This document shows, piece by piece, positions 4,304 to 60,300 of a stretch of 64,000 bases of DNA (positions within the stretch are counted from its first letter, which is position 1; every line of letters starts with the position of its first letter). The notes beneath the pieces were generated by a model, which worked only from the letters and a program-made list of their open reading frames with translations, searched no databases and was not told the DNA's origin. This stretch comes from Arenicola marina (lineage: Eukaryota; Annelida; Polychaeta; Arenicolidae): assembly GCA_964019135.1 (NCBI GenBank), contig OZ025255.1, positions 26,513,708 to 26,577,707 on the forward strand. Direction: 5' to 3'. Position numbers and translations under genes: made by a program.

Positions 4304-4690
4304 ATACCTGATACTGAAGATCTAATGTTTTTCTGCGTTTGACCGTTTTTGGTCACTTTATGTGGCTGAGAGATCCCATTAGAAGGGAGCTTGGCGTGCA
4401 CGTAAAGCCAGCCGGTAACTAATAAAAGTGGATGTGCAGGGATCAATAACTGGTTCTCTCTGGTATGGACTAGAGCTCAACAGATATATAAGTCACCAAT
4501 TCGCGTTTGTGGTGCGTCTTTGCATACAACCAAACTTCAAGGGTAACATGTTTGCCTGTTTTCATCAAGTGTTTGCCTTTAGGTGACGTCCATTCATTTT
4601 TGCATCACTTCCACATTTTGCTGCCCAAATGTGCGGTTTAGTCCCCCTTTCTCACGCGGTCTGAATTAACATATCCGTTCGATCGACGCT
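4304..4690. other. Intergenic, no gene seen
   Basis: Sequence between the SRFBP1-like 3' end and the 22-bp minisatellite. Only short random frames are present. Confidence 0.5.
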
Positions 4691-10716: not shown

Positions 10717-11899
10717 GTAGCTCTCGGCCGGTGTTCCAAACCTGGTTGAACGTTTCTAAACGCGACTAGGGGGACATTATGATATAAAGCAAAATCCAGC
10801 CATTGGCCAACAACCAGGCACGTAAACAGCACCGCGCCATACAAGTCTAAGAAAAAAAAAATTGTGCACCAAAAACCAAGCTGGAACGAAGACAACTGCG
10901 CATGACAAACCAACCTCGAACAAATCACGGCATCAGGAGGTCCGTGTATATACCGTCCAATAGTTTTTCGTTTTTAAAACGATCATAAAAAAAACGAAAA
11001 ACAAACCAACAATCGTTTTTCGTTTACCGAAACATAATTCAAAAAATTAAAATTGATCCTTGATACCGTGTTCCGTCTTCCTCAGTCAAGACAAACAAAA
11101 GTAAATAAAAAAGTACTACCATATACCGTTTCAATACAGAATCAAATACACGGTCGCGTAATGGGCCCGTCTATATAGCGTCCAATCGTTTTTCTTTTTT
11201 AAAATGATCATAAGAAAAACAAAAAACGATCCAACAATCATTTTTCATTTTCAGTTTGGCAACATAGAAGACGAATTATCCCAAAGGTAATCCCAGAGGT
11301 AAACCAAAAGGTAAACCGAACGCGCATTGCAGACTCATTACATAGGTATACCTCCCGACCGTTCAAAACAGCAAGGAACATTCGAGAGAGGATGGCAGTT
11401 GATTAAATAGTGATGGACTACTAGGCTGGTTCCCTTGCCCCATAATGCACCAGACTTGACCAGTGTGAACATTGGCAAATACGGCGTAGCCCTATCGGCA
11501 AGCCCGGAATAGGTTGAGTATATTGGGCGGCACACCCGTCCTGGCCTAAAGAAATGCACCCATTGTGTTGCGCCGCGGCGCGCCAGGCTAACCGCGCTGC
11601 TAACAGGGCGGGTGGCGGCCTGTAATCGGTTATAATATGCATTATATATACATACTTACATAACATGTAGTGCTTTTTTTTAGTTTGCGACCTGTCTGTC
11701 TTTGGTTAAATAACGGTGCAGAAATCTGAAACAAACAAACAAGTAGGCGTAAGGCTGACTATAAATGGACGATATAAGCCTAACTTTATTGCCATGGATC
11801 CACCCTCAAGTACGTAAAACGCCACACGAATGAACACTATGAACAAAGAACGATTACTGCCAACCCGACAAGGAGCAGTTTTATTAAACCGGTGGCGGA
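10717..11899. other. Intergenic with a pair of AT-rich repeats
   Basis: 10940-11035 and 11166-11255 are diverged direct copies. Each holds an inverted motif (GTTTTTCGTTTTT / AAAAACGAAAAAC) preceded by TATATA-C/G-CGTCCAAT. No supported gene in the stretch. Confidence 0.6.
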
Positions 11900-18628: not shown

Positions 18629-20160
18629 ATGTTGCAGAAATCTTTGATTCCATAGATGACTCTTATTGGGTATACCAAACATTGTTAAAGAAGGTAGTGG
18701 ATATTCACGCTCCTATTAAACAGAGGATTGTCAAGCATAATCGTGTCCCGTACATGAATGATGAACTAAGGAGATCCATGAATGTAAAAAATTTGCTACG
18801 ACGTGTGCTTTACAAAGAACATTCGCTAATAAATTGGGAACAGTATCGCAAACATCAAAACCATGCAACAAAACTGTTTAAGAAAAGCGTGCGGCACTAT
18901 GTAAAGTATAAATGTATTGGCCAAAAAGATTGGAAGCATGTTTGGTCTGTGGTGAAACCACTCATCTCTAGCAAATGTACAAGCAAAGGTGATTCTATAG
19001 CTCTCAAGATGATGTATTGTCAATGAACCAGACAAAGTAGGCAATATCTCCAATGATTACTTCGTAAATATCACCAGTGAGATAGGGGAACCAGATCCCA
19101 TCCATGATGTAAATGACGCTGAGATTATCACAGCGAAACATGCCTCGCATACACATGTACAATGGGTAGGGGATAATTATAGAAATGGGAAATATTTTTC
19201 TTTCGCCTCAGTTGATTCGCATGTGGTGTTAAACAAATGAAAGGGGCTGAATGCAAAAAAATATCTGGGCTGGGATGCTCTACCACCCAAATAAGTCAAG
19301 ATAAGTGCAGAGCATCTATGTCAGCCACTCACAGGACTCATAAATAACTCAATAGCTCAATCAGATGTCCTAAAATTAGCCGAAGTTTCACCAATTTTAA
19401 AGAAAGGTAACTCGATGGACAAAAGCAACTACCGCGTAATAAGCGTACTACTATGTTTATCAAAAATATACGAAATTATCTTAATTGATCAGCTAACCGA
19501 GTACTTCGAACCCATTTTATCGCCTCCAGTCTCTGCTACAGGAAGGTATATAGCTGCCAAAATGTGTTAACCGATTTTATTGAAAACTGTAAGTTGCATG
19601 TTGATAACAGATTTATTACAGGATCTATTATAACAGATTTATCAAAAGCTTTTGATTGTCTGCCATATGGACTATTAGTCAATAAATTAAATCCCTAATG
19701 TGCACGATTTAAAATCTTGCACATTAGTAGCAAATTATTTTCAAAACAGGAAACAGCGAAGTTATGCAATAAGGAAGCGTTGATTTGACCTTAATGAAAG
19801 GAGCTCCTCATGGGTCTTTCTTTGGCTCATTGGCTCATTTGCTTTCAATATATTGATTTATGATCTCGTCAAAAGTAGGGAGGGTAACGAGCAGAGTGAC
19901 CTGTCCAACTATGCCGATGACAACACCGTTTCCTGCTACGGTCAAAGTATTGAGAGCGTTACGGACAGTGTTGAAAACGTGGCGTCCAAACTGATGGACT
20001 GGTTTCAGGAAAATTACAAGAAAGCCAACCCATCTAAATTCCAGTATATATTATTTGGGACTAAGCCCACAAGTGAAACGCAAAATGTCCACGTTGGGGA
20101 TGATGTCATAAGTTTTGTTAGTTGTGTCAAGCTACTTTTTTAGCTTGACACAACTAACAA
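18629..20160 (+). pseudogene. Degenerate LINE reverse transcriptase
   Basis: Broken frames keep the order of a non-LTR ORF2. First comes a pre-RT linker (18629-19020, with WEQYRKHQNHATKLFKKSVR), then ISVLLCLSKIYE near 19440 and motif A as LSKAFDCLPYGLLVNKLN near 19640. Next are a motif-B-like KGAPHGSFFGSFAFNI near 19800 and the catalytic loop NYADDNT at about 19907. Stops and frameshifts (first near 19024) show it is dead. It ends in a perfect hairpin at 20115-20160. Confidence 0.75.
20115..20160. repeat. Perfect 20-bp-arm hairpin
   Basis: TTGTTAGTTGTGTCAAGCTA at 20115-20134 is followed by CTTTTT and its exact reverse complement at 20141-20160. Confidence 0.95.
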
Positions 20161-23615: not shown

Positions 23616-24502
23616 TGAATGGAAAAATGACGTGTTTAAGTTTTGAATCTATAAGTATGCAATATATACCAGGGTATGTTGACAAGACCCCTTTTTTTCC
23701 AAGACGTTTCATCACCTGTAAGAAAGTGTGGGTTTCTTGCGTACTACGTCATCAGGATTCAGACATTGCTGCCGTCTATGTTGTACAGAGTTAACATTCA
23801 AGCAGGCAGACAAGATGTCTTGGACGAAAACAGTAAACCTATGCATGAAGCAGAACAGCTTTAAGATAATGCATTAATATGCTATGATAAATACACCATA
23901 CAATAAAAATATGTTTAAACCAAGTACACCATATCATGCAGTAATTTGGTATGATATCTAAAAAAGGCATACATCTAAAAAGGAGTTAACATTGATAAGA
24001 TTTGACAATGTATCCAATATAGATTTTTTTTCAACAAAATTTCGAGTCAAATCGTTTTCATTCCATTCTCCACCAAACCAAAAGCTGGACAAGTGTACTT
24101 GAAATATTCAAAAAGTTATACCTTATTGACATTTTGGTTTGCATCATGGCGTCCTGGCCTTGCTATGGTTACGGTAAAGGTGATTGTTTACTAATAAAAT
24201 TGCGCCAATATTCCGCAAACACAAAATTGCAAGCGTAGTTTTATCCTCAACAGGTTTACGTTAAAAATCTCTATTAATCTTAAGTTTCACCTAAACGATT
24301 GTACACAAGAATATTTACCGAAGTGGGTAGGCCTATTTTTAACCCCTCGCCCCCACCCATCCATCAAACTTTTCCCAAAAGTGTACGCCGGCCCTGCGTT
24401 TTAAAGAGTGCAAAATGCTGTATTAATCATTGTATGCCTATGTATACAGTTTACGACTGGTTACTTCTGTTTCCAATCTTGCCGTTCGATCAGCCTGGAG
24501 CC
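23616..24502. other. Intergenic, upstream of the PAN-like gene
   Basis: AT-rich, with no domain-bearing frame. It should contain the promoter of the gene starting at 24503, but no clear TATA box was identified. Confidence 0.4.
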
Positions 24503-27500
24503 ATGACGTCATTGCTGACGTTGACTGTCCGCGCCGCGCTGCTCCAATCCCTGCTCTACCTCCACCAACACCTCGCCGTCCTCGCGCAGACCATAACGCT
24601 GACCAGCTACCACTTCCGGGCGACCAGTCAGTCTCGCCTGGACTTGAGCTCACTGTGTGGCGTGTCCTTCGCAGCAAGGACTCGAATTCAGTGCGCCTCT
24701 CGCTGCGCAGCCATCGCCGAGTGTTCCGCATTCGGATACGATGACGTCACACCGAGCAGCAGCTGTCACGCCCTTTGGCTGGGTCCCGGATGTACGCCAA
24801 ACTCCTACACCCCTCACGCCGACGTCCGGTACTTCAGCAAAGGTAATTTAATGGATGGCACACGTCGCACTTAAAGGTGCTGTTACAACACATGCATTGT
24901 ATGACGTGAAAGGGTTTGCTGAGCACATAGTGAGCCTCATTGACACGCCACGGAGCACAATGATGCCTGGTAATAGACCGATCCATACTCCGACACTAAG
25001 TCCCGCCCACGCTTGAGTCCTTCTTCTTTAGTCATGAGTATGTAATTGACATCCATAGCAAATGGTAGGTACAAGTGAGAAGTACTCATCTCTGAAACTG
25101 ATAATGCAGTGACAGGCTGCTTTGTTTGTCCGATTTGTTTGTCCGACCTAACGCACGTGGAAGAGCTTTGTGCGGCACATGATTGGATAAAAGCAGCAGT
25201 GACGTCAGTGAATGAATGACAGCCTGGATCGATCTATTGGTCGGGCATTCACCCACACCGGTGCGCATGTTTACCATTTGTCGTAATGGCAGCTATAAAG
25301 ATATTGTTGCAAGCAAAAAGTGTAAACATGCGACCATCCGACGTAAAAGCACTATTAATTTCTAAAATAGCCTCTGTCTTCCAGTCAGACTGCTTGTCAC
25401 CCGGACGCACGCTGCGACCCGTTTATCTCCAATCCTAATACTAAGTCCCGAGGACATCTCACGCAACTTCGTAATGTTGGTAGCAACGTAAGAGTGCCAT
25501 GACATTTTGTATAAATGTTAGATGAGTTAAGGAGAGGGACATACCATAATCTATATCCAGAATTGGTCGCTTTCGGTACTTTATTGCACCACTTAATTAA
25601 ATACATGAGAGAGGCGGTCGTGTTGCCAGATCACGAAGAATAAATTTCTTTATTCCCAGGTCACGAGAACTCCCCGCACACAAAGGAAGGGCGGATACAT
25701 AATATAAATTTCTCGATTTCCCGATTCACTGTTATCTACATTTAACATTCCCAGTTCACGATTATTGAAAATCCTTGATCACGACGGTCGGGTCATACCT
25801 TATTGCCAGTTCTTAAAGAATTAGTTTCCTCATTCCCAGTTCACGGTAAAATGAAAAGTCCATTCTCAAGGAACCGAAATACCCCTTGCCCCCCCCCCCC
25901 ACCCCCCTTCTAGCTGACTCACCCTCCTCCACAGTGAGGAAGGAGTATGCGTCAGACAACTGATGGTGTGATGACTCTATGTGAATATAGAAAGTAAGGT
26001 TTATTTATTATGTTGTACTGTAGGCTACCGGCCTCTGGTACATTAGATACGCACACAACAGGCATACACTGTACATACAGACAATTTGAAAACAAAAAAT
26101 ATGAAATATAAAAGTCATGGGCTTCTGCAGTCCAACTCGCTGTTTCACTTCATCAAAGCCCTATTGGTAAACATCGCAATATTTCTAAAGGTGTTACCGT
26201 TCCTAGTTTCCATTTCGTGTCCGAAGTTCCATCTATTAACCGTTATGATATTCGGAGTGTATTTTAATCCTAACTGATCATATTATAATGGACAACAACA
26301 GAAAAAAATGAAACTCGTCTTCAACAGCGTTGTCGTATTTGTCCCTGCAATACCCACGTTATCACTCTTCTATTGGTTGGTTACTATATCTATTTGAAGC
26401 GGATGATTTGAACATCGGAATTTGCTCATGCTTATTCTGTACTTTCGTATATCAACAGCGGATAGGTAACGTTCAAGATTCAACAAAGTCTTGAAATTAC
26501 AATACGTTTATAATTTGAGTTTATAATGCATCTCTTTATCAAACTCTTGAAACGCGCTGTTCGTTATAGTCTCTGTTTTAGATGATACATAAACGCGTCT
26601 TCGTTCGTTTCTTTGACAAATAAGGGTATAACCCAAGCCAAATTTATATAATACTTCCTTAACTTTTGCAACCCAGCACGTTTGTCTAGAAACATGCACA
26701 TTGTGTAACATATTATACACTGACTGACTGTCGCGTATCACCCACGAGTAAAACTTTTTAACCAATATCTGATACATATTGTTATATTTTCTATGGATAG
26801 TGGATGCGCCCGCATTCTCCAAGCACTGCAAATGTTGTAGTCTTTGAACTTCCACCCAGGAGGAATTTACAATAACGGGATTGGACACATGCAATACAGT
26901 CTTGTCTTTCCTTGTCCCAGATTTCTGCGCCGTAGGTTAATATGGGTAAAATAATTTTATGAAACATATGAATTAGGGCAACTGGAATAGGTACTCGACA
27001 CCTTTAGACCATTTAAGGCGAGACGAGATCACAAGACCTACATATGTATAATATAAGGGGTTACTTTCGTCTGTTGTCCTCCAAAAGAAAAATGTGTCAT
27101 TTGCCCTTAAACCGCCACGGTTTCAGAAGACCATGACATTTGCTGACGTTGCAACCTGCCCACAGCGTCGGCACAGTCAATTTGGATCTTGGATTCTTAC
27201 GCCCCCTCTTCACAATATAGGTTTTTTTTATTTATCTCACTGTCAAAGCGATGAAATTAAGGTGTTCGGGTACATAATTATACCTGTGATCTATGTAGCT
27301 CTAGCGAAAAACCCTTTCCCTCATATATGATATAGACATAGACCTCCTTAATGGAATAATAAACTACGCCACGACATGTGGCCCACTTTACTGACACAAG
27401 TTTCTATTTCTTGTCCCCAAGGTTTGTCCACCGCCCCCACCCACACCATAACACCCCCGAGTACGGAAGCAGATTCCCGATCGACTACGGAAGCAGATTC

Positions 27501-31559: not shown

Positions 31560-32728
31560 CCTTGGACCGCAGGTATCAAGGACCACAGAATAGACCGTGC
31601 TTCTTCTTTGGGGAGGCGGACCAACCTCTTGAAGATTACAAATTCACGCTACGGACACTGTATAACAACACTTTTCCCGAATGCGCGGTTCCACCAGGTG
31701 TATTGAATTGGGAAAGGGTGTTTCACACAACGTTAGACCCGGATTTAATCTTCGGGATATTTACATGAAGTCTTTGAACCGCCAATTATCGGATTTTCAA
31801 TGGAAATTATGCCATCAAACGTTAAACTGCAATAAATACCTGCGCCAGTGCAAAATCATAGATGGCCCCAATTGTCCGTTCTGTGACGACATGGTAGAAT
31901 CTATCTATCACTGCTTCACCAAATGCTGCCACTTTAAAGAATCAAAAGCCCTTTTTAAAGTGTTTTTCAAGAAACTCCTGCGCACTAGAAATCTGCTGAA
32001 TGATTTTACGATATGTTTCGGCTTTACCCAAATCGAACATGCACAGGCACCCTCAAACGTTATTAGCTACCTACTTAACCTATACAAACACTCCGAGTGG
32101 CTCTCCCGAAAACTTAAAGCTAAAGGCAGGATATCCCCAACTTGGGCAATTTTTAACAATACTCTACACACCAAGATAAAAGATGACCATTTTTGTACCC
32201 GTAATACGAAGTACGCACGGACTCTATTTAAAGATAAATGGGGCCGTAATAATTTCTTATGCCAAGTAGATAAGGACTTTAAAATAATCCATCTAGTATC
32301 GGTCAACCCATATGACCCTCCATGAACGAGACCTCAACAATCAACAGGCCTTTAACCTGTAGCCCACGGCAACGAGGCGCCGATAATCACATCCTTCTTA
32401 ACCACTAGGACCCCATAAGGTAGCTTTAAATAGCGATTTTAACCTATATATACAAAATACCAGCAGGATACGCAGGCCCAGAAATGAAGCAACCACCCCC
32501 CCCCTTCCACGCACATACCCAACAGTCCCCTGATACAATAAATACGGAGAAATTATAACATGTATTACTTTTCAGCCGCCCACAACAATGGAAAAACGTG
32601 GATTCAGAATTACAGAATGCATTAATCAATAGACATTTCGATGTGACCCCGCTTTACGGCTGTTATATACTTTTATGTACCATGTTGTCGAATTGTCGAT
32701 TTGAAATAAAACACAAATACCAACAAAG
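31560..32728 (+). pseudogene. LINE 3' end, copy B with zinc-binding RT domain
   Basis: The frame 31681-32325 contains SDFQWKLCHQTLNCNKYL, then GPNCPFCDDMVESIYHCFTKC: the CxxC...HxxxxC motif of the zf-RVT domain that follows the reverse transcriptase. A frameshift near 31750 links it to an upstream frame from 31562. The 3' tail is as in copy A. 5'-truncated. Confidence 0.8.
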
Positions 32729-37714: not shown

Positions 37715-38956
37715 ATGAAGAAAGCACGTGGCGGTATCCAGGGGAAGACGCTTACTCGTCCACGGAAACATCGAACCGGAAATGACGCAGCTGCTGGCGT
37801 TGACAAGGTCATGGCCGATGTCTTCAACGACCATTGGTTGGTGGAATCCCCTCGGCGGGTCCAGTTCGAGAAGACATCGCTATGTCAGACCAGCTCGCTG
37901 GTGGGGCCGCTGGAGGAGTTCTACCAGGACATCGTCCGTGTCCCGGATGAGTACAGCGAGGCCACGAGGCGGTACACCGAAGAATTCCTAGGGTACTTGA
38001 CTCCGCGGGTGTCCAAGCTAGGCAACCAGGCGGGGTTAAAGGTGCTGAGGACGAAATACTCGGGTAGCATGGCGGACACGACGCAGGTTATCCTGCCTAG
38101 GGAGGTGGATGTGTTGGTGTTGTTCGACCGGAACAAGGCTCGAGTGGAGGCGGCCGACGACCCGGGGTACCGAACGGTGCCCCTGAAGGCCTTCCGGGTG
38201 GTGGAGGGTGAGCCTCCCGACGCGTGGCGCTACGGTCGCTCCCCGGATGGCCGCCATCTTTCCCCGATGGCCGTCGCCAGTAATATCTACGACCTGGTGC
38301 GACGCGCGCTCAAGCTGCACCCGAACGCCAAACTTCGGCGGTTTATGGTTGCCGACGGCAGCGCACAGATCACGGTCGATCTTACCTCCGGTCACGTGAT
38401 CAACCTGATCCCGGCGTCGTTCTCGGACGTCGATGACGCGTACCTCGTGACCAGACCCTACTCCTATGACGTCAGTCCCACGTCATCCGTCCACTGGCGG
38501 CTGTGCTTCGTCGACCGGGAAAAAACCCTTCTGGATAGCATGAACCAAGCGGACTGCGGGATGCGGCTCCAGGCCTTCAAGATCCTGAAGGCGTTGTTCC
38601 GTCTGGAGCCGACGCTTCACGGGATCAGTACGTACCACCTTCGGACGGTGTTGCTCCACACGTTGGAGAACGCCGTCGATGGCCAGCGACGGTGGCAACG
38701 CCATTCTCTGGAGCACGCATTTCTGGATCTGTGGCAGCGCCTCCTGGCGGCGATCCAGGAGAGGAGATTGCCCAACTTCTTCATGTCGTCGCATAATTTA
38801 TTTGCGGTAATGGATGAGCGACGTCTAGCTGCTCTTCAGGGCAGGATTCAATTCCTGCTCCAGAATCCGGGACAGCTTCAGCGACTCATCCGGAAGCACT
38901 CCGCAACCCAGTGTGTGGATCACGACGAGTCTGGATCAAACTCCATGGCGTCCTGA
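37715..38956 (+). CDS. Mab-21/cGAS-like nucleotidyltransferase, single exon
   Basis: 413 residues from the ATG at 37715; a second in-frame ATG at 37811 (Met33) is also possible. The N-terminal half is a Mab-21 nucleotidyltransferase core. SGSMADTTQ (G117-S118) is the GS loop, REVDVLVLF supplies the first two acids (E130, D132), and ITVDLTSG supplies the third (D222). All three metal-binding acids of cGAS-type enzymes therefore seem present, unlike many Mab-21 paralogues. The C-terminal half has the family's helical signature: [14 protein letters not shown], and [13 protein letters not shown] (the LP.YF....NL pattern). There is no zinc thumb as in vertebrate cGAS. cGAS-like receptors make cyclic dinucleotides on binding nucleic acid and signal through STING; whether this one does is inference. 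GC content is high compared with its surroundings, as expected for a coding exon. A developmental Mab-21 role is the alternative. Confidence 0.85.
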
Positions 38957-42400: not shown

Positions 42401-43350
42401 CGAGAAGACGAGAAGTACTGGAAGATGAAATCGCGAATTATTATTAATATTTAAAAGTATAAATTGAATCCCCAATTAGTCCGCGGGGGTCAATTTTACA
42501 TATGGTTACGTAACAACGCTCCTTATATAGACTGACCATGTGAGGACAAGTGTATGCCGTTTGTCGCAGAAATGTAAACAGCGATGATTTGCCTCAAAAT
42601 ACAACGCTTCTAACAGTCTCATCTAACAGACCACATGCATTGTGCAGAGATAAATGTCTTATCTCAACTATATTATGATTTTATAGTTAGCAATGCCTGG
42701 ACCAAAGCAAACGAAAACATTGTTTCTCACTCACTCGGCCTCGCCCCGGTTCCCAACCCTCAAAACGTTGACTACAATGAGTGCGCGTCACGCAGCTGCA
42801 GCAAGGCACCAGCGTGATGCGCACTCATTCTAAGAGCACGTGTTTTTTTGTTGGATCTACACCAGAAATAGAACCAGCGAGAACTGTACAGCATGTACAT
42901 CTGTAGCATGCATTCATAACGCACGAACATAGAAAACAAATGCCTCGCTGTCAATATGCACTATACGCACTCTACACATTCTACCCACTGTACACATGCA
43001 ACGCACTCTACACATGCTACGCACTCTACAAATTCTACGCAGTCTACATACTGTACGCACTCTACATATATATCATCAGACAACATGCTCTACGACACTT
43101 GATATGATGAGAGGTGATCGAAGGTTTATGGCATGTACCTTAGCCTGACATAATATGTGCTCGGGAAATTCCTGCAGTTTCGTTTCGCTTTTTTGCTGAT
43201 TACTCGAGAGATAAGAGATTCTGATTCACTATTGCAAACATGATACCAAAAATTCCCACATTTCTATAAACAACACCCGTAGGTGTACCTTAGGTAGGCG
43301 TCGGGAGTTTGGTGTTATGTTTACCCCTTAAGATTGCCAATTTGGGGACT
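42401..43350. other. Intergenic upstream of the deaminase gene
   Basis: Contains a hairpin at 42776-42829 (18-bp arms, one mismatch: AATGAGTGCGCGTCACGC) and a loose 17-18-bp repeat (CTACGCACTCTACACATG) at 42958-43075. Confidence 0.5.
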
Positions 43351-43358
43351 ATAAAAGC
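43351..43358 (+). promoter_or_regulatory. TATA box of the AID/APOBEC-like gene
   Basis: TATAAAAG, with CCAAT nine bases upstream (43338-43342). It predicts a start near 43381 and a leader of only about 43 bases to the ATG at 43424. Confidence 0.6.
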
Positions 43359-43404
43359 GATCTCGCAGCTACAAGTCGCATACACATATCAGAACTCCTC
43401 TAGG

Positions 43405-43545
43405 ATGAGAGTCACTTTTCACGATGTCGCTGACAATGCCACAAAAGGAAGCTTTCCTGAACTCAGGCGTGCAAAATCGGTGGAAAAATACGGCAAAATC
43501 CAAGACGGTCAGGAAAGGAGTGGTTCTCTACGCCGAGACCTGTGA
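43405..43545 (+). promoter_or_regulatory. Overlapping upstream ORF
   Basis: An ATG at 43405, with A at -3, opens a 46-codon frame that overlaps the deaminase start in another frame and stops at 43545. If transcription starts at the TATA-predicted site, ribosomes meet this ATG first. Confidence 0.4.
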
Positions 43546-46500
43546 ACTCACAAGTAGGCCAGCTCCACAGCACTGCAAGGTGTTCTCCAGCGACAAGCGC
43601 CACCATGCGGAAGACAAGCTGATACAGTGGCTGAGGAAGTTGATGCAGCCCCCCACTATCAACCACACGGAAAGCACGGTTACTGTGAGTATCTGTCTGC
43701 ATCCCACGGTATTTTCGCGGCGCACGCTTGCAATACTGTTACCGCACACAATGTATCACTTATAGCAACCTACTTACATGCGTCATCTTAGATTTTTTAC
43801 ATATTACAATCAAGGCTAAAAGTATTACGAAATTATGATGCATATGTTTTATATCTCTTGGAGTCTGTAAAACAAGAATTTCAACATAAAACTGCGCGGT
43901 TTATTTATATCGCGCGCGGACGTCCTAGCCAGCGGCTATCGACATCACACAGAATACCGAAAAGCGAACAGGCGCGCAGGGATATAAAGCCGGTCACCAA
44001 CTTCTGCTCCGATGAACAAATTTACTTCTCAACGTATAGCCCACGGGCTTTCAGGATTTAAATTCAAGACAGAATATACTTATTTGACATGAAGAAGAGG
44101 TTGATAATACACATATACATATACAGAATATATTACTTTAATTATGAAATGGCTCACTAGATGGCGGCACAATATCGGTGCTGTGCTCATAACTATTAAT
44201 TTATCAGGTGAATATGGTCGCGTGGTTAAAGCGTCCTGAATAAACAACCAACCGTTGTTAGTGCGCGAATTTTCAGTTTATACACTACTCTTCGTACACT
44301 ATCTAAACAATCCGCGAGAAGTACCATTATTAGATTTTTCCATTTAGTTCCGAATAAAAAGCAGTTATTTCCTATTTTCAGTTATCTGCTTTATAAAAGG
44401 TGAAGCAAACAAAGATACCATCATGCCGTGTTCCATTTTAAACATGTTAATTAAAGCCCTATAGAGAACAGTAAGAGGCAGAAGCCTGTACAGCTGAATT
44501 GGTAGGGCCTCACGCCGGTAATCGTAGGGCGTGTGCGATTTACATGAAGCTAAAACCTGTTTAGATTACACGAAAAGAATCGAAACTGGTTTGCTTGAAA
44601 CCGTATGTACCCATAGAGCGGGTTTTACGGTTTCGGTTCAGGGGAAGTGTTGCATCGATTACACATACATCAACATAACTTAATTTTATTCTATAATTTG
44701 TGTCATTTATTGAATGCCTATTTTCATAAATGCATTTATTAAAATAAGCTGGCATAACTACAGAAGCCAATGGTCGTGATCCAAACCACTGCCTACAGTA
44801 AATTGCGCCATGTTGAGGCTGTAAATAAATGGCATGATGTGTCTGTCGTTAGGTTGGGGCACCCTTGTAAACGCTTTTAGAACTGGTTTCGGTTGAAAGT
44901 CGTTTTATCTAAACCGAGCGTCCTTAGTCTCGTGGTTCAAACCTGTATGGTGCATCAGCTTATTTTAATTTGAGTTACAACTATTTCGTCGCAGTCACAT
45001 GAAAAATGCAGTCAGGGTCATTTTTCGAAGCAAAATCCTGGAGCCGTATCTGCGACTGAAGAATGCACATCTTGGCTGTACAGCCGCTGTGCATACTTCT
45101 GTGCTGTACCGATGCCCCCCCCCCCCCCCCCCTGACGGTAGCTTATTTGCAATCATAGCAAGTCCTAATTACTTGATAACGCGCTCTCTCGATATATTTT
45201 ACTACCGTAATCACCTAATTTATAGGTTTGACTGTGATTTCACATTCCACTCCAGCGTCCGACTCATAAACTTTCATTCGCCAGTTTGTTTCCTTTGTTG
45301 GGTGGCTGTTAAGTCACTCTGCAGAATTCCTTCTAGAAATTCCTTCCAGGCCTTACAACATGTAAAATTCTTTACAGAAAATGGTGGCCTTACAAATGCA
45401 AAATTCCTTCCAGACAGTGGTGGCCTTTCAATATGTAAAAAAAACGTAAATGGTGGCATTACAAATGAATAATTCTTTGCAGGAATGGCGGCCTTATGAA
45501 GTGGCATCAGTTCCATGGCGAGTTACATGTTGGCTCTCTGCCTCACCCTGCCACGCGTGCTCAGAGAAACTATTGGCAACCATGGCGAGGAACGCAGAAT
45601 TGTCATGTAAGTCTGGATGGAATAACGTTTCACGTTATTTCTTGGTCCAAATTAACTGTTTATTAAAAGAAAGAATATATGCTTCAATAACAGGTTAACA
45701 GGCTTTTATTGTAGGAAATCACTGAAGATTGTTTCATACCTGGGTAAAAATATGGGGCCTAGTGTGGTATGCGGGATCAAGGTAGGACACTTTCATACCA
45801 GACATTGTCGCCAAACCCTCGACGGATGGGATTAAGAGGTTCGTCTGTAGCGTGGAAGCCTTTTTTGCTTTGCATTTTTTTGCCCTGGAGCTTACCTTGC
45901 GATCGTAAGTATTAACAGAGCTTACCAAACCAAACCAAGCATGAGCGACCTCATGCATGCATTTCATACTTGCCATTTTTTCCTAGGGATGTATTTGGCT
46001 AGGTATTCAGTTCACAGTTGTGTTAATTCTTCCACCGTCTTTGAAACCAGTATTATTTGGGCGATGCAAAAACAATTTGAAATATACGTGGCACTCATGT
46101 TCGTTTCCGGCGCATGCGTAGAACCAACGCCGTTACTGCTATCCTTGTTTAAGGTACATATTATCACAGTTTACATCGCGCTCGGCATTACACATTCACC
46201 ATTTCGCCACACATATAAATAACCATCCAATGAATGACGACACAATTAACAACCTTTGATACTTATTTTGCAGCGTTTCTTCGGGTGCCTAAAATTGTTG
46301 ACTTCCACGTAAAATTCGCTCGCTTGTACCAAACTCGAGGGAACATGGCGAGTGCAGGGCAAAACAGGCGTGGACTGCGGAACCTTAGTGAACGCCCGGG
46401 GGTGAGTCTATCGGCCTTGGACCCAACCGACTACGCACATCTGGGAATCTCCTTGACGTCTTCAATGGCCGCCAAACGCCACAAACAGGATACCGCCGTG

Positions 46501-46554
46501 CACTCTGATCTGTGGCAGATCCTACACCCTACCCTGGACCATGATACCACCTAA
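43424..46554 (+). CDS. AID/APOBEC-like cytidine deaminase, three exons
   Basis: Exons 43424-43684, 45483-45606 and 46274-46554 (GT-AG; phases 0 and 1) join to 221 residues; vertebrate AID is about 200. AID/APOBEC enzymes deaminate cytosine in DNA or RNA, with one zinc held by His and two Cys and a Glu as proton shuttle. Features in order: a strand KGVVLYAETCEL (about 31-42), the zinc motif HHAEDKLIQWL (H61, E63), a strand leading to SASPCHAC (C110, C113), then VDFHVKFARLYQTRG with the ARLY signature (about 144-147), RRGLRNLSERPGV (GLR-x-L) and DPTDYAHLG. Motif order and phase agreement across both junctions leave little doubt about the superfamily. Odd points: 45 residues separate HAE from PC, longer than in vertebrate AID; Ala replaces Trp in SWSPC; no signal peptide is seen. 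A cytoplasmic or nuclear location is inferred. Clade placement within AID/APOBEC-like, including the secreted invertebrate groups, is open. Confidence 0.85.
43685..45482 (+). other. Deaminase intron 1
   Basis: Contains a SINE tail fragment at 44213-44256 (GTGGTTAAAGCGTCCTGAAT then CAACCAACC), a C run at 45117-45131 and the acceptor repeats at its 3' end. The ATG frame 43858-44061 has no deaminase motif. Confidence 0.55.
45325..45500 (+). repeat. Tandem repeats of the exon-2 acceptor junction (deaminase gene)
   Basis: The last 150 bases of intron 1 contain three decayed copies of the junction: CCTTCCAG/GCCTTACAACATG ending at 45349, TTTACAG/AAAATGGTGGCC at 45376 and CTTCCAG/ACAGTGGTGGCC at 45412. 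A headless copy near 45450 and the real TTTGCAG/GAATGGCGGCC at 45482 follow. Pseudo-exonic and intronic sides are duplicated together. Confidence 0.75.
45607..46273 (+). other. Deaminase intron 2
   Basis: Contains an open segment (45987-46153) with plausible splice sites and matching phase at its start, but it lacks family motifs and its splice phase into the next exon is wrong. No other exon seen. Confidence 0.5.
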
Positions 46555-47159
46555 ATACCGTTAAACATAGACAAATATGAAATGTCGCCATAATTGGTGT
46601 AATATGTATTGTATATACTGCCCCTGAATCTTTTCTATACTTGTTGTATGTCTATTATCTACGTTTCACTTATCTTTTGCTTTTTTGTGTTGGCTAAGTC
46701 TCCAACTTACCTAATAGTATGAACATAACTTATATATTATTATATCTTTCTTTGGAATCTTGGTAAAGATGATGTATCAGTTGCTCTTTTGTTTGTTTTC
46801 CTTGTTTCCGCGTGTGTTTCTGCGTTAAAATTGACACATGAAAACTAGCCCTTCTCGTTCATCAGCAATGTGACTTTTTTTTTATTATTATATAAACATA
46901 ATTTCTATTGTAACATTGCTCTGTAAAGGAAATTATATCGCCATATAGGGTAAAGTGGTGTTTTCAGTAATTCATTATTTAATCATTTCTTATTTATTTT
47001 AAATTGACTGTATAAGCTTATGCCCAGACAGAGCTAACACTTATTTCATTTTACTTGTTCTGATTTTATTCGCCTGTCTTTATAAGTATTAAAATTGTGT
47101 ATTCGGGCGTATTATTATTCAAACATGCGATGTATTATGTAACTTGGAACTAAGTTTGG

Positions 47160-47165
47160 AATAAA
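47160..47165 (+). terminator. Possible poly(A) signal of the deaminase gene
   Basis: AATAAA 606 bases after the stop codon, after an AT-rich stretch that could be the 3' UTR. Its assignment is uncertain. Confidence 0.35.
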
Positions 47166-48156
47166 TTATAATTACATCAAAGGAACCTACAAGTCTTCGT
47201 GATTCATTTAGTTATTGCATTCGAGACTTTAAACGTTTGGATATTATATACATCGATATTATATACATCGTTTCGTTATCAAATTAGTTCAATTTCGGAA
47301 CGTAGCTAAATAACCGTGGAAAATCTGAAACCAGTTTTGGCCAACGTTCACGTATTTCCAAAAGCGGGTGATATTGATAATTTATTAAAACAGCACCACT
47401 ACAACACCAATTAGTGCCCCGTACTCATACTACTTTGCATTAATCAACAGTGTATACTGATTACTTTATTTGCAAAAGGCCACAGGCCAAAGTGCACGTA
47501 CAATGCATGTTGGTGCGTACAACCATCTTTTAGTTTCTATACTACACATGGATATGGTTATATCATGATGATACAGTACCTTGCTGACGTTCCTAGACGT
47601 ACGGCTTTGCAGGTGATTCAATTGCAATTAAATGGAATCTATTATTTGTCATGCCAAACCGGGGAAAATCAAGTTAAACATTTGGATTCCTCAAATTGCC
47701 AAAAATGCTTCTTTGGGCTCAATCACCTCAAAGAGTGTTAAAAGTAGACACCAAGCACAAAGCGTGCATCGATAGCAATTATTTAGTCGTTATGGCGAGA
47801 TCAAATAATTACTTAAGAACGGGACTGCATATTGGTGGCAATAAGTACTCAAGTATGACGTCTATAATAAACATTAACACTTGCAAATATATCGAATTGC
47901 AACAATCTTTGGCATAACATAAGTTTGACGTAACATTTAGTATATAAGTACTTACATCAATACACTCGCAGAACTAAATTTATGAACTTTACCAGCCATA
48001 GATACCATTGACTCATAACCCGCTAGCATTTATTTAATTGCAAAAGCCTTACATTTTCACACAGGCATACCTTACTATATACATTACTTTACATCACATT
48101 CATATATAAGCACACAGGCTACTTTACCACGCGGTTAAACATTGATGCCACGTAAT
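47166..48156. other. Intergenic, no gene seen
   Basis: AT-rich, with no domain-bearing frame. Confidence 0.4.
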
Positions 48157-48159
48157 ACA

Positions 48160-48531
48160 TGACTACACATCAATACAGTATTACATGGTACTGCATGATT
48201 ACAAATTACAGTAATAGATGGTACTGTATGATTACAAATCATTACAACATTACATTGTACTGCATGATTACACATCAATACAGTATTACATGGTACTGCA
48301 CGATTACACATCAATACAGTATTACATGGTACTGCATGACTACACATTAATACAGTATCACATGGTACTGCATGATTACACATCAATACAGTATTACATG
48401 GTACTGCATGATTACACATCAATACAGTATTACATGGTAGTGCATGATTACACATCAATACAGTATTACATGGTACTGCATGACTACACATTAATACAGT
48501 ATCACATGGTACTGCATGATTACACATGCAT
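48160..48531. repeat. 36-bp minisatellite
   Basis: About ten units of TACATGGTACTGCATGATTA followed by CACATCAATACAGTAT. Leftmost units are diverged; rightmost units are near-identical. Confidence 0.9.
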
Positions 48532-48675
48532 ACATTATGCAAACGATTACATTATGACATATACACAAATCACTACACAGTTGTATATTATTGCACATAG
48601 ATATATCATTATGCAGACACACATTACAACACCAAAATGAAGTTCTATACAGGCATACATACATATATTACATTA

Positions 48676-50200
48676 GCACAGAGTTCCAAACAAACATAGA
48701 TCACTACACAGTCATACATTACTACAAAATCATACATTACTACAAAGTCATACATTACTACACAGTCATACATTGTTTCACAGTGATTCCTTCCAAGACC
48801 GCGATACATTACTACACGGTCATACATTACTACAGTCATACATTACTACAGTCATACATTACAAGACAGTCATACATTACTACAGTCATACATTACTACA
48901 GTCATACAATACTACAGTCATACATTACAAAACAGTCATACATTACTACACAACATTTTCTGTTGAAATGCAAATTATATCAGGATCTACAAATAAGGTA
49001 TATATTAAAACATATTTGGGGTAGAAATGTTATTGCTGGGAGGGACATTGTTAAATTACTAAATAGTAAAGCTGTAAGTATTGTATCGGATATTAGTATT
49101 TATATATTTTTAGCTAAGCAAAGGAGACGAAGAGATTTTGTTAGACACTTAAGGGACATACCACTCATGCTGTGTTTATAAGTTTACAACTGTAAGTGAT
49201 ATGGGCCGGAGGACTTAAATCACTGGCATACATTGTTTCACAGTCATTCATTCCAGGACCACGCTACATTACTACACAGTCATACATTACTACACAGTCA
49301 TACATTACTAGTCATACATTACTACACAATCATACATTACCACACAGTCATACATTACTACAGTCATACATTACTACAGTCATACATTACTACAGTCATA
49401 CATTGCTGCAGTCATTCATTACAAGGCAGTTATGCATTACTACACAGTCACACATTACCACAGTCATACATTACTACAATCATATATTACTACACCATCA
49501 TACATTACTACGCAGTCATACATTACCACACAGTCATACATTACTACAGTCATCCATTACTACACCGTCATACATTACTACACCGTCGTACAGTGTCACA
49601 CAGTGATACATTACTACACAGTCATAACTTACTACACTGTCATACATTACTACACCGTCATACATCACCACACAGTCATACATTACTACACCGTCATACA
49701 TTACCACACAGTCATACATTACTACACAGTCATACATTACTACACCATCATACATTGTTTCGCAGTCATACATTACTACACAGTCATACATTACTACACC
49801 GTCATACATTATTAGTCATTTATTCCAAGACAGTGATACGTTACCCAACAGTTATACATTGCTAAGCTGTCATACATTACTCAGATCTCATACCTTACTC
49901 AGATGTCATACAATACTAAGCTGTCATACATTACTCAGATGTCATACAATTCTAAGCTGTCATACAATACTAAGGTGTCATACATTACTACACCATCGTA
50001 CATTACTACGCAATCATACATTACCACAGTCATACATTACTACAGTCATACATTACTATACAATCATACATTACCTAACATTCATACATTACTACACCGT
50101 CATACATTACTAGTCATACATGACTACAGTGTCATACATTACCTAACAGTCATGCATTACTACGCAATCCTACATTACCTAACAATTATACACTTCCACA
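48676..50200. repeat. 18/15-bp minisatellite with a unique insert
   Basis: Units of TACATTACTACACAGTCA and the short form TACATTACTACAGTCA. A 270-bp unique block (about 48957-49228) splits the array. CATTCCAGGACC/CCTTCCAAGACC-type junk flanks near 48781-48805 and 49243-49265 are copies of each other, so the array around the block has been duplicated. Confidence 0.9.
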
Positions 50201-50712
50201 AAGTCATATGGTACTGTAGTTACTAAACAACGCATCCATTACTGCAGTCACAGATGATATAAGTGATGTATAACAGCGCTTGTATATATAAGACAGCAGT
50301 CATACTGAACTATATCATACTATTGCATGGCCATAACCCTATGTAGAATCGATCATGGCTGAACTGAATCGACAGATGCAAGCGGCAGACATTAAAATGA
50401 CGTCATAGAACTATAGTTAACTGCTGAATGAATGACACTGTATTATCATCATAAAGGTTGCTAATTACAAACGGTACTTGATAAATACTATAAACACACA
50501 TGAAACATTTGAAGGAATACCCCTAAATGTAAATATCTTGTTTAAATGCAGTTGTGTGATGCAAATGCTGTATGAGTGACTTTAATAATTAGATTTGCAT
50601 TTCTTGGTCGCCCCCACTCCGCCATGTTGTGATAACGTTACTAGGCGATGACATATACATATAGTTACAGAAAATGGCGTGGCGACATATACGTGAGACG
50701 GTTTAGTGGCAT

Positions 50713-54300: not shown

Positions 54301-57300
54301 GTTGGCCACGAGCCAGGGAACAGACTCTGGTAGCAACCTGTGGAATTGAAATGGAATCTAAAACAACATTGAAATGGAATCTAAAACAGCATTTCCTCGA
54401 TCAGTTATTTGGCCACATTTATAGATTTATTTATCACAGCAAAACAGACGAGGACTGAGGCCATATCACAACCTACCAGACGAGGGCTATGGTGAGGACT
54501 GGGGCGATATCACATCCTAAAAGACGAAGGCTATGGTGAGGACTGTGGCGATATCACAACCTGCCAGACGAGGACAATGGTGAGGACAGGGGTGATATCA
54601 CAACCTACCAGACGAGGGCTATGGTGAGGACTGGGGCGAGATCACAACCTACCAGACACGGACTATGGGGAGAAGGGGGCGATATCACAACCTACCAGAC
54701 GAGGGCTATGGTGAGGACTGGTGCGATATCACAACCTACCAGACGAGGGCTATGGTGAGGACTGGTGCGATATCACAACCTACCAGACGAGGGCTATGGT
54801 GAGGACTGGGGCGATATCACAACCTACCAGACGAGGGCTATGGTGAGGACTGGTGCGATATCACAACCTACCAGACGAGGGCTATGGTGAGGACTGGGGC
54901 GATATCACAACCTACCAGACGAGGGCAATGGTGAGGACTGGGGCGATATCACAACCTACCAGACGAGGGCTATGATGAGGACTGGGGCGATATCACATTC
55001 TAACAGACGAAGGCTATGGTGAGGACTGTGGCGATATCACAACCTACCAGACGAGGGCTATGGTGAGGACTGAGGCCATATCACAACCTACCAGACGAGG
55101 GCTATGGTGAGGACTGTGGCGATATCACAACCTGCCAGACGAGGACAATGGTGAGGACAGGGGTGATATCACAACCTACCAGACGAGGGCTATGGTGAGG
55201 ACTGGGGCGAGATCACAACCTACCAGACACGGACTATGGGGAGAAGGGGGCGATATCACAACCTACCAGACGAGGGCTATGGTGAGGACTGGTGCGATAT
55301 CACAACCTACCAGACGAGGGCTATGGTGAGGACTGGTGCGATATCACAACCTACCAGACGAGGGCTATGGTGAGGACTGGTGCGATATCACAACCTACCA
55401 GACGAGGGCTATGGTGAGGACTGGTGCGATATCACAACCTACCAGACGAGGGCTATGGTGAGGACTGGGGCGAGATCACAACCTACCAGACACGGACTAT
55501 GGGGAGAAGGGGGCGATATCACAACCTACCAGACGAGGGCTATGGTGAGGACTGGTGCGATATCACAACCTACCAGACGAGGGCTATGGTGAGGACTGGT
55601 GCGATATCACAACCTACCAGACGAGGGCTATGGTGAGGACTGGTGCGATATCACAACCTACCAGACGAGGGCTATGGTGAGAACTGGGGCGAGATCACAA
55701 CCTACCAGACACGGACTATGGGGAGAAGGGGGCGATATCACAACCTACCAGACGAGAGCTATGGTGAGGACTGGGGTGATATCACAACCTACCAGACGAG
55801 GGCTATGGTGAGGACTAGGGCGATATCACAACCTACCAGACGAGGGCTATGGGGAGGACTGGGGCGATATCCCTAAAATGCTAGACGAGGGCTATGGGGA
55901 GGACTGGGGTGATATCACAACCTACCAGGCAAGGGCTATGGGGAGGACTGGGACGATATCACAACTTACCAGACGAGGGCTATTGTGAAGACTGGTGCGA
56001 TATCACAACCTACCAGACAAGGGCTATGGTGAGGACTGAGGCGAGATCACAACCTACCAGACAGGGGCTATGGTGAGGACTAGGGACGATATCACAACCT
56101 ACCAGACGAGGGCTATGGTGAGGACTGAGACGATATCACAACCTACCAGACGAGGGCTATGGTGAGGAAGGTGTGAATTCATAACTTACCAGACAAGGGC
56201 TATAGTGAGGACTGGGGCGATATCACAACTTACCAGACGAGAGATATGGTGAGGACTGGGTTGATATCACAACTTACCAGACGAGGGCTATTCTGAGGAC
56301 TGGGGCGATATCACAAAATGTTAGACAAGGGCTATGGTGAGGACTGGGGTGATATCACAACCTACCGCGAGGGCTATGGTGAGGACTGGGGTGATATCAC
56401 AACCTACCGCGAGGGCTATGGTGAGGACTGGGGTGATATCACAACCTACCGCGAGGGCTATGGTGAGGACTGGGGTGATATCACAACCTACCAGCGAGGG
56501 CTATGGTGAGTACTGGGGCGAGATCACAACCTACCAGACGAGGGCTATGGTGAGGACTGGGGCGATATCACAACCTACCAGACGAGGGCTATGGTGAGGA
56601 TCGGCGGCAGTGTGACAGCCAGTTGCAGGTAGCGCCAGTGTGTGATGAGGTAGGCCATGAGAGCCAGTGCCATCCACGCTGCGGCCCAGAACAGCTCCAG
56701 GGCCGTGCCGGCGAACGTACGCTGGGGCGCCGGAAACAGCTCACACGCCATCACGATGCCAACCAGACCTGCCCCCTGGCGGAGCAAAGACGAAATATGT
56801 CGCGTTTGGAGTTGTCTAACTTTCTTGTGGCAGTGTATAGTTGGGCACAGTATGATAATCTAATCCCACCTGATACATTATCAGCTAAGATATAACATTG
56901 ACTTTATGTGATACTATAAGGCCTGATATAACACTATTAACTCAGGTATAGCACTGTAGACCCAGCTGTGGCACTATAACTTCATGCGATACTATAAAGC
57001 CTTATATATTCCTCTATGACAAATTCCTCTATTATGTCAATTATGGCATCGGAGAACCCAACAAGATAGATAGAAGACACCATGACCTTATTATCTCACG
57101 TAAACTTCTATATATATGGCACCGTATCGTCATCCATATATCCGCCATGATTCCTCTTCATTTTTCAATAACGCTGAATACATACCCCCCCCCCACACAT
57201 TCTCTGCCCCCCCCCCATTCCCCCCCCCCCACCCCTTCTTAGAGACATACCTCCCGGATGGCCCCGAGCAGGAACCGGAGGACGACGAAGGCGATGTAGG

Positions 57301-60300
57301 TAGGGGCGAAGGCGATGGCGAGCCCGACGACGATCATGGCGTACTGGCAGCCCAGGTGGACGGGCTTCCGGCCAATGCGGTCGGCCAGCGCCGTGAAGAC
57401 CACAGCGCCTACCATCACCCCGAAGTTAAACACCGATTGCGAGGTCTCCACCAGGTAGTTCTTGTCGCACACCAGGTTCCACTGGAAGAAATAGCAAAAA
57501 GAAATGCAATGAAATGAAATGTTGGGTGTTTATTCGGTGTTATGTTAACCCGCATTTGTGCACAAGATTTTATTTTTAAATTGGGTCAATAAACGCTCGG
57601 GACAAAGAAAATGGGATTCAGTGACATTTTTGATATTGCCGACATGTGACACAAATATTTTTTAATATTACCGACACGCGACACGAAAATAGTGTCATTA
57701 TTTGTGTGAAAAGGGTGTGTGAATGAAGCATCTATAGCAGGCCCAATGAGTATGCTAAGATGAGGCATCAATGGCGGCGATATTAGGGTCTTTGTACCGC
57801 TCAATGCCGTGTCTGCAACGGAATGATCACTGAACGCTCATCAGATCAACGCCGCCGGCCCGATAGCTCAGTGGGTTAGAGCGCTCGCCTTGAGTGCTCT
57901 GGCCATCTGAGAGCCTAACGGCGCGTGGATCGGTTGTGCGAACCCCGCTGTGGCCATGTCTGTGTGGTCGAAGGATAAAAATCCCCTGTCCTTCTTCGCA
58001 AAGAGTAGGGGGTTACCCCCGGGAACATGGCTCCACTATCCCTTCCTTCTGCCATTGACGCGATATGACCAAAGTGGTTAAAGCGTTCTGAATATACAAT
58101 CAATCAGATCAATGTTTGACTAAGGTCCTGGTTCATTTAGCTGGCCATGGGCTTCGAGTATGAGCTGTCGGTCTGAGCCTACAAACTACGAAGTCAATGG
58201 GTTTACAATTAAACTTTGAGGACTGGACAGGTAGACGAGGTAGGTGAGTGCACTATGGCGGTACTGTGGCGGCTTTCAAAGTGATATGAAGTTTACAATC
58301 AGAAAGAAGGGCAAGGAGCTTCAGGGATGTTCGTGTTTTGGCATCTAGGGATCTAGGGACGGGTCCAGACAATCGGGATATGGGGGGGGGGGGCGGTTTC
58401 AGGGTCGGATCCAGATATGCTGGATAGGGGGCCGTTGTTACGGTTTTCATATGTTAAATGGTATAAATTTCGGTCCTAAAAGGAGGGTGGGGCTGGGGCC
58501 GGGTCGCCCCCCCCCCCCTAAATCCGCCCCTGTCTAGGGGTTGGTGATACGTTATAGTCACACTGAGGCTCAACAACTCAGTAATTATAATGTTGGACAT
58601 GGGTGGGGAGGGGGTGCTGGGTGGAGGCGATGGGAGAGGAGGCCGGGGCGAGCGAGAGAGGGAGGGTAAGTGACTGCAAGATAAACCCGCATGATACGCA
58701 ACGCAAATCCCGTACCGCTCAACCTTTACTGCATCGTAGAAGATCCGGACAGGAAACCACGGGGGTAAGGACAAAATGACCAGTGGCTGATTGATATGGA
58801 TCCGCTCCAGCTTTTAATCCCAGTTCCAGGGCTATTTCTTCATTCTGATCTGGGACTCGACCGAGGGGATATCTGGCCTGGATGCCACTCGGGTATATGC
58901 CTAGCCTAACGGAACGGTAGAGGGGAAGGGTCACAGGTGATTGTGTACAGGCGCCTGTCGGAAGCGGAAACTCTGAGCGAGGAACCAGACAGAATATCAA
59001 ACATTTGTCGTCGCAACAATGGCGGCCTGGGAGTGATGCGTGGGCATGCGCGGTCCTCGACCAACGGGGGGAGTCAAGGAAACATGTCATTACCGGTCAA
59101 CATCCGGGTACCGATAATCGGCAAACGTTCAATAAAAGAGGATCGAGGGCCTGGGGGTTGATTGATGCCGCCGCTAGGGGGATCGATTAGGGCCAGGTAA
59201 TCGCCCTCAGTTTTGGGAGGTCGTGGTCTGGAATAATGCATGAGGGGGGCAGTCTCCAGTCACATAGTCCTATGCCAACTTTGGCCGTCGCAGACTGTCG
59301 TTTCGTTGGCATGTTTTTAAGGTGGTTATTGTAATATTGCATCATCATTGGGGTCGTGCATGTCGTAATAAACAAGTCGTAAAATATGCCCCATTTACGG
59401 CAACGGTATTAGCGAAGGTTTGATCAAAATTATAAACATTCATATTGACATTATTCGTCACGCTATGGTGGGGACTGGGGCTATATCACAACCTACGAGG
59501 CATTGTGAGCTCTGGGACAATGGTACAACCCACCAGACATAATAATTGATTGCCACTTTATTTTATTATTAGTAGTAGTATCATTAATATTATATTAATA
59601 TTGTATTATTGATGATTTCAAAATATTGCGAAAATCATGTTGTTATGTCATTGCATGATACAGAATATAAAAAAATCAGGTAATACCTGGCAAAATAATT
59701 GAAGGAAGAAATTTTGCTGAATGTTTAAATTAGAAAATATCAGTCTGCGGATGTCGCGTGCCCGCCCTTTCTTCATTATGCAGTGCTATGCCAGTTTTGC
59801 CCTCGTCTCCCAACTGAACACCACAATGTAACACCATTACCTTGTCGCCTCGTTGATTCGTTGTCTCTAAATGTCCTAGGGCACGCTACGAATTGTAGAC
59901 AATGATATTATTATTATTATTATTATTGGGTTTATATAGCGCCAAATCCGTGAATCCGTTCAAAGACGCTGTACATCGAAGTAAACCGGGTAATTGACAA
60001 AATATACAAAATTATATTAACGGTTTGGAAAAATCTTGCCCAAACGCCATACCACATGAACTATTGTTGCGTAATATATTTTTGTGTGCAATATCTTATG
60101 TATGAGACAATGGCCGCCACATGCCACCTCTGCTACTATTATTATGGCATCCACTTTGCTGAAGGTACCTTGCCTCTGTCACTATGGTGACAGCTTACCT
60201 CTGTAACTATGTTGAAGATACCTTGCCTCTGTCACTATGGTGACAGCTTACCTCTGTAACTATGATCACGGTATCTTACCTCTGTAACTACGATCACGGT

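Follow-up and report, generated by a model that had tools for sequence, protein, structure and literature searches.

The window analysed here is a stretch of 64,000 nucleotides (positions 26513708-26577707 of contig C8), and its plus strand carries a three-exon gene for an AID/APOBEC-like deaminase. The exons lie at 43424-43684, 45483-45606 and 46274-46554 and together give 221 codons and a stop. A preliminary description of this DNA had proposed such a gene from three exons in matching phases, and the observation is confirmed: both introns are GT-AG and the frame runs on as claimed through 221 residues. The motifs named with it (HAE, SPC-x2-C, ARLY, GLR and DY) were all found in the translated product, between residues 61 and 182. 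The span given for the gene was 43351-46554; coding begins at the ATG at 43424, and 43351 falls inside a TATAAA. The elements of the gene, in window coordinates, are as follows.

43350-43355, plus strand, TATAAA, putative TATA box, some 70 bases 5' of the ATG, from sequence
43424-43684, plus strand, exon 1, 87 codons from the ATG at 43424, ending in phase 0, donor ACT/GTGAGT (exon/intron)
43604-43612, plus strand, codons of HAE61-63, most likely the zinc-ligand His and catalytic Glu, from profile masking
43664-43672, plus strand, codons of HTE81-83, competing zinc-ligand candidate, from MAFFT and paralog-profile masking
43685-45482, plus strand, intron 1, GT-AG, phase 0, separating the two zinc motifs and without counterpart in the paralogs
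45349-45500, plus strand, 36-nt tandem repeat at the 3' end of intron 1
45483-45606, plus strand, exon 2, 41 codons and one base, phase 1, donor CAT/GTAAGT (exon/intron)
45540-45542, plus strand, codon of Ala107, SASPC against SWSPC, at the position of APOBEC3G Trp285 in the alignment
45543-45560, plus strand, SPCHAC (108-113), with C110 and C113 the predicted cysteine zinc ligands
45607-46273, plus strand, intron 2, GT-AG, phase 1, in place and phase equal to the single modelled intron of the paralogs
46274-46554, plus strand, exon 3, including the TAA stop
46318-46329, plus strand, ARLY (144-147), motif in the translation
46372-46380, plus strand, GLR (162-164), motif in the translation
46429-46434, plus strand, DY (181-182), motif in the translation
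47160-47165, plus strand, putative AATAAA, the first 3' of the stop, from sequence

A further TATAAA lies upstream of the gene at 43265, and an ATTAAA at 47088 lies between the stop and the first AATAAA. The introns end in TTTGCAG and TTTTGCAG. No second copy of the gene was seen within the window, where tblastn gave the three exons and otherwise only matches of E>=1.9.

Profile searches support the assignment of the protein to the AID/APOBEC-like deaminase family, in a host that appears not to be a vertebrate. At E<=10 the spliced protein matched ten Pfam families, every one of them an AID/APOBEC family; no other deaminase family was listed. Six clearly passed their curated cut-offs: NAD1 (58.7 bits, cut-off 27, E 1.1e-15), APOBEC_N (52.9, 25, E 5.7e-14), SNAD4 (52.4, 27, and so below the first two), APOBEC2 (45.1, 26.8), APOBEC4 (42.1, 27.2) and APOBEC4_like (35.1, 26.7). 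APOBEC3 reached 27 bits against 27, and APOBEC1, NAD2 and AID stayed under theirs. AID proper (PF18767) matched weakly at residues 102-121, with 15.1 bits against a cut-off of 27.3, and was rejected as the identity of the gene. In the PDB, the 26 sequences found with the window protein at E<=1 were all APOBECs (best 1.7e-5, APOBEC3G). A profile of the window protein and its paralogs A, B and C, which are introduced below, matched AID/APOBEC chains in 40 of 40 cases at E<=0.001. The wording AID/APOBEC-like thus holds by Pfam and PDB, AID itself does not, and the unrelated fold against which a profile search had been proposed as a check is not indicated.

Searched singly, exon 2 matched NAD1 (2.6e-5) and APOBEC2 (6.5e-6) and exon 3 matched NAD1 (6.5e-6) and APOBEC4 (5.4e-6), all slightly below cut-off, and the two exons cover adjoining NAD1 positions, 72-100 and 93-142. 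Joined, they scored 50.5 bits with NAD1 and 40.9 with APOBEC_N, and addition of exon 1 raised these scores to 58.7 and 52.9 (+8.2 and +12.0). A profile of the three paralogs was also run against all stop-to-stop open reading frames (ORFs) of at least 30 residues in the whole window; it matched two of the 1161, exon 2 (8.2e-7) and exon 3 (8.6e-9), and had no match in 60 simulated windows (first-order Markov, with the dinucleotide frequencies of the window). This profile is partly dependent on the window protein, with which the paralogs were first found, and two of the three were also recovered by Pfam families alone. The protein has HxE followed by PCxxC (HAE61-63, PCHAC109-113), as members of the family do. 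That it is an unrelated zinc deaminase acting on free nucleotides or tRNA, or a chance join of exons, is hardly conceivable. HxE and PCxxC are found across the whole deaminase superfamily, which could speak for the former, but every Pfam family listed is AID/APOBEC and the PDB lists hold no other deaminase; a chance join was rejected on the 0 of 60 simulated windows. No family for the deaminase was found in NCBIfam, and no stretch matched in the viral contigs.

The genome (867 Mb in 762 contigs) was searched with the window protein, SNAD4, APOBEC_N and paralog B as queries. The best 13, 11, 17 and 9 candidates, respectively, were scored exon by exon, and the copy count is a lower bound. For all four queries, every match scored was on C8, either in the window gene or in a minus-strand cluster about 16 Mb from it, at 10.803-10.834 Mb. 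The cluster (loci L008-L011, C8:10803300-10834000) comprises three paralogs that look intact and a single broken piece.

10830081-10829754 and 10822174-10821888, minus strand, exons of paralog A, their pairing over 7.6 kb presumed
10810924-10810612 and 10809898-10809573, minus strand, exons of paralog B
10805878-10805596 and 10803622-10803300, minus strand, exons of paralog C
about 10833.5 kb, minus strand, piece D, resembling a last exon and apparently frameshifted

No first exon was found for piece D. The APOBEC_N E-values of A, B and C are 1.7e-14, 6.3e-20 and 4.4e-16. The HxE-PC spacing is 28 in A and 27 in B and C; A and B follow the pattern H[AVS]E-x(24-36)-PCxxC, and C has Ser for Pro, with SSCSVC in place of the SPCxxC of A, B and the window protein. 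Nonsynonymous and synonymous divergence between A and B are 0.37 and 2.65, the latter saturated. Over aligned codons the window gene is 33% identical to B and 34% to A, and its synonymous divergence is not estimable. The window gene itself was found with the window-protein and paralog B queries, and the B query returned its exon 3. Among 14 control genomes, SNAD4 gave matches below cut-off in two, both bacterial, and APOBEC_N in none.

The introns of these genes bear on the model. A, B and C are each modelled with one phase-1 intron a little way past the PCxxC helix, following RNAQP, NRRSP and KVVA, and intron 2 of the window gene has the same phase and the corresponding place, after RNAELS. 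This common intron supports the join of exon 2 to exon 3. Both zinc motifs lie in a single exon in A, B and C; in the window gene alone they are split, by intron 1, and its protein has about 17 extra residues between them relative to the paralogs. The acceptor of the gene model and the codons for EWRPYE, with which exon 2 opens, lie in the last copy of the 36-nt repeat. Acceptor-like ATTCyTTnCAG sites occur four times on the plus strand of the window, all within this repeat, and the copy at 45429 is without one. The three sites upstream of the acceptor in the model would put the first exon base at 45350, 45378 or 45414. Intron 1 and part of the extra loop might have been gained from the repeat; the alternative is loss of the intron in the ancestor of the cluster.

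Other choices for the first exon were considered. The GTGAGT donor of exon 1 occurs in no other listed in-frame combination of HxE and donor. A first exon around the HVE at 44809, the nearest in-frame option tested, gave 50.2 bits with NAD1 and 40.6 with APOBEC_N when joined to exons 2 and 3. It was rejected because NAD1 scored 50.5 without any first exon and 58.7 with exon 1. Two more candidates, with HSE at 41837 and 42185, are listed, and scoring covered the HVE at 44809 only. The listed in-frame combinations from HAE to SPC number four, namely the gene model and three options with poor donors (GTTACT/GTATCT) that shorten the extra loop by 2-8 residues, to spacings of 43, 40 and 37. These three were rejected.

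Exon 1 contains two motifs that could supply the zinc-ligand histidine. To judge from profile scores with each motif masked, HAE61 is very likely the ligand, and its helix is followed by an inserted loop. Masking HAE lowered NAD1 from 58.7 to 52.2 bits (-6.5), APOBEC_N from 52.9 to 42.5 (-10.4) and APOBEC2 by 6.7, and masking HTE cost these profiles 0.9, 0 and 1.1 bits. With SNAD4, APOBEC3 and NAD2, HAE masking was again the costlier, by 1.0, 1.4 and 1.9 bits, and with APOBEC4 the two hardly differed. Deletion of residues 76-92, which removes HTE and sets the HAE helix beside the next strand, raised all nine listed Pfam scores (NAD1 to 68.2), and the paralog profile, at 73.0 bits for the whole protein, reached 80.7; this test counts in part, as removing any insertion would lift scores. 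It is distinctly unlikely that the zinc site is HTE81-83, at an HxE-PC spacing of 25, and that the upstream HAE is coincidental or exon 1 partly misassigned. Default MAFFT, L-INS-i and E-INS-i all place HTE on the HAE of A, B and C, and the A/B/C profile falls from 73.0 to 67.5 bits with HTE masked and to 71.1 with HAE masked. APOBEC4_like (35.1) drops to 31.8 and 34.8, and APOBEC1 (25.0) changes to 24.2 and 25.7, in the same order. Most Pfam profiles nevertheless favour HAE61, three of them strongly and three somewhat, and the scores after deletion add to this with the partial weight stated above.

The zinc-ligand candidates, the Glu, and the Arg and Tyr of ARLY are all present in the window protein. 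We consider that the gene looks intact and probably encodes a single-domain AID/APOBEC-like deaminase of a protostome, which would act inside the cell. In a hydropathy scan near the N terminus, the best 11-residue Kyte-Doolittle mean was 0.35, which argues, as far as so crude a scan can, against a signal peptide like that of the secreted SNAD proteins. H61, C110 and C113 would hold zinc, and E63 would move the proton when cytosine in single-stranded DNA or RNA is hydrolytically deaminated to uracil. Published relatives in invertebrates suggest, by analogy, innate defence against viruses or retroelements as the most likely role. Catalytic activity is the least certain step of this reading. The window copy has diverged from the cluster. 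It has one more intron, some 17 additional residues after the HxE helix and before the strand that follows, three more residues in loop 7 than the cluster paralogs, and Ala in place of the Trp of the predicted -1 pocket. This divergence in intron, loops and pocket suggests that its specificity or rate probably differs from that of the paralogs.

Several observations weigh against this reading. The Trp of SWSPC is Ala107 in the alignment to APOBEC3G. According to a passage of PMC5875850, the -1 pocket of APOBEC3G is lined by W285 and Y315, both strongly conserved across the APOBEC3 (A3) enzymes and AID, and a passage of PMC4009770 names W285A among changes that abolish deamination with DNA binding unaffected, data not shown there. 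HAE and PC are 45 apart, where an excerpt of PMC5956068 gives 24-36, and the pattern H[AVS]E-x(24-36)-PCxxC is absent, as HTE83 is 25 from PC but its Thr is outside [AVS]. We treat this spacing as descriptive rather than defining because the extra residues lie at a gene-specific intron and the family profiles match across them. The earlier words 'intact' and 'TATA-driven' are overstated; the first suits the frame and splice sites but not the Trp or the spacing, and the TATA box is a putative one. Exon 1 alone gave no AID/APOBEC match in Pfam, the sole family listed being OGG_N (E 0.16). In the protein database, the window protein as query gave 52 candidates, none at E<=1e-3, and the A/B/C profile gave 2671, none at E<=1. 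Neither the SNAD4 nor the APOBEC_N search of the genome listed the exons of the window gene, so lone exons from divergent copies can escape such searches. Finally, the contrast between codon positions, which favours the reading, with identity at first, second and third positions of 0.46/0.57/0.28 with B and 0.42/0.58/0.30 with A, is inflated at positions 1 and 2 by the protein-guided alignment.

Ala107 also bears on the possibility that the fold and zinc are kept with little or no deaminase activity and that the protein acts by binding nucleic acid or a partner. We regard this as unlikely, though it deserves serious consideration. Besides the change at the W285 position, it would fit the extra loop beside the active-site helix and the report, in a part of PMC5956068, that several relatives, such as LaAIDL2 and APOBEC2, were inactive in bacterial assays. 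The same part allows that the bacterial assay may not suit marine invertebrate enzymes, and the candidate zinc ligands, Glu and ARLY are retained. In the alignment, A, B and C have Tyr at the SWSPC Trp position, and the ARLY Arg position is Phe in A and B and Ala in C. Loss of the active-site Trp might also mark a dispersed duplicate that is decaying, unexpressed or no longer functional. Copies do decay in this family, as the broken piece D indicates, but the 221 open codons over three exons, the consensus splice sites, and third codon positions far less conserved than first and second against the paralogs make decay improbable here. A bolder view, to which we give very little credence, is that in this protostome lineage one part of the family became the tandem cluster and another the dispersed copy, which gained its intron and loop partly from the intronic repeat and, with an altered -1 pocket, turned to a new target. 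This target might be the host's own transcripts or immune genes, and the protein would be a dedicated protostome editor. For the role of the SWSPC Trp and of the loop next to the catalytic helix, the window copy offers a natural experiment.

The host was judged from its Hox motifs. Two homeodomains on contig C18 are trailed by QQIKEMN and QAIKELN; set beside the passage on the UbdA-type motif in PMC12852818, QAIKELN fits and QQIKEMN has Met for Leu. These motifs indicate that the host is most likely a protostome. A third homeodomain on C18 is one that we take to be Post2-like, and the Lox/Post2 pattern, as we assume it, would make the host probably spiralian. A vertebrate host was ruled out by the Hox motifs and a CpG observed/expected ratio of 0.92 (GC content 0.437; 48,936 window bases outside the main repeat arrays). 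Such a ratio is unlike vertebrate genomes. The initial placement of the gene outside vertebrates is borne out by QAIKELN and QQIKEMN in the same genome. Erythrocruorin linker domains gave four matches at two places on contig C14, which would suit an annelid. They do not prove one, because extracellular globins and linkers are known from ten phyla according to the abstract of PMC6400237. At C17:21614463-21826411, 26 homeodomain matches are arrayed in about 210 kb, and seven of them have an in-frame stop.

The window contains other features.

4650-7250, 11880-17690, 48150-50220 and 54440-56610, very large minisatellite arrays with units of 22/44, 31, 18/36 and 44 bp
19784-20140, plus strand, retrotransposon remnant, reverse transcriptase (RVT_1 3.6e-4, below cut-off)
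24284-24871, plus strand, ORF weakly matching a PAN domain (2.8e-4, slightly under cut-off)
31666-32322, plus strand, retrotransposon remnant, zf-RVT (4.5e-6)
37715-38956, plus strand, single-exon Mab-21 family gene, 413 residues, 4.5 kb upstream of the deaminase gene on the same strand
57242-57529, minus strand, exon of a sugar/major-facilitator transporter (Sugar_tr 2.0e-7, MFS_1 3.9e-8)

Some of the minisatellite arrays are strongly strand-skewed and open in several frames. Further exons of the transporter, to about 51390, were placed by eye only and have no Pfam matches. Rfam and tRNA scans of the window found nothing. The best PDB match of the Mab-21 protein is cGAS-like receptor 1 (2.9e-16) and the next is MiD51. 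Besides GS and E-x-D it carries a third Asp (ITVDL), which its relatives P0001-P0003 do not share, and nucleotidyltransferase activity is therefore doubtful. The idea of an immune island formed by Mab-21 and the deaminase was not relied on, and within the 70 kb around the paralog cluster Mab-21 matched nothing at E<=0.1.

These data describe a chromosome-placed protostome family of at least four AID/APOBEC-like genes, split into exons such that ORF-based annotation would miss them, and the phase-1 intron common to the family is a marker for tracing it. The main survey of AID/APOBEC deaminases, by Krishnan et al. in PNAS in 2018, reportedly includes lophotrochozoans in its abstract. No title on an annelid member was among the literature matches listed, and we make no claim to a first report. 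The excerpts of PMC5956068, from 2018, describe AID/APOBEC-like genes in sea urchin and the brachiopod Lingula, some with mutator activity, and report immune-type expression, induction on challenge for the sea urchin genes, and oyster proteins among database matches. In amphioxus no AID/APOBEC-like gene had been found, according to a passage of PMC10354150. The bearing on the origin of vertebrate AID, stressed in the preliminary description, is thus modest, as invertebrate members were already in print (PMC5956068). The published view that enzymes of this kind are older than the split between protostomes and deuterostomes gains support from the gene but does not rest on it.

Compared with known systems, the window gene is a further member of an already published invertebrate kind, set off by an intron, a loop and an altered pocket of its own. 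The purple sea urchin proteins SpAIDL1-9 are recognised by pfam08210, which the window protein also matches; they are multi-copy like the present family, some urchin loci are frameshifted, and SpAIDL1 and SpAIDL4a, at 193 and 194 residues, are similar in size to the window protein (passages of PMC5956068). LaAIDL1 of Lingula anatina has two deaminase domains there, against one in the window protein. The spacing of 45 sets the window protein apart from LaAIDL1, LaAIDL2 and SpAIDL1-9, as compared by their description in that source and not by sequence, and the intron between its motifs may be a further difference. NAD1 (PF18778, Novel AID APOBEC clade 1) is its best profile, with residues 19-185 on positions 11-142 of 175, but for A, B and C the top profile is APOBEC_N, so that a placement in the NAD1 clade would be tentative. 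APOBEC2 (PF18772), at 45.1 bits, is not its top-scoring family. The best-matching solved relatives are APOBEC3G catalytic domains (PDB 6wma, 8h0i and others). SPCxxC and the strand that precedes SPC align with these, whereas the window protein has Ala for Trp285 and longer loops, and its best single-sequence match spans residues 98-168 only.

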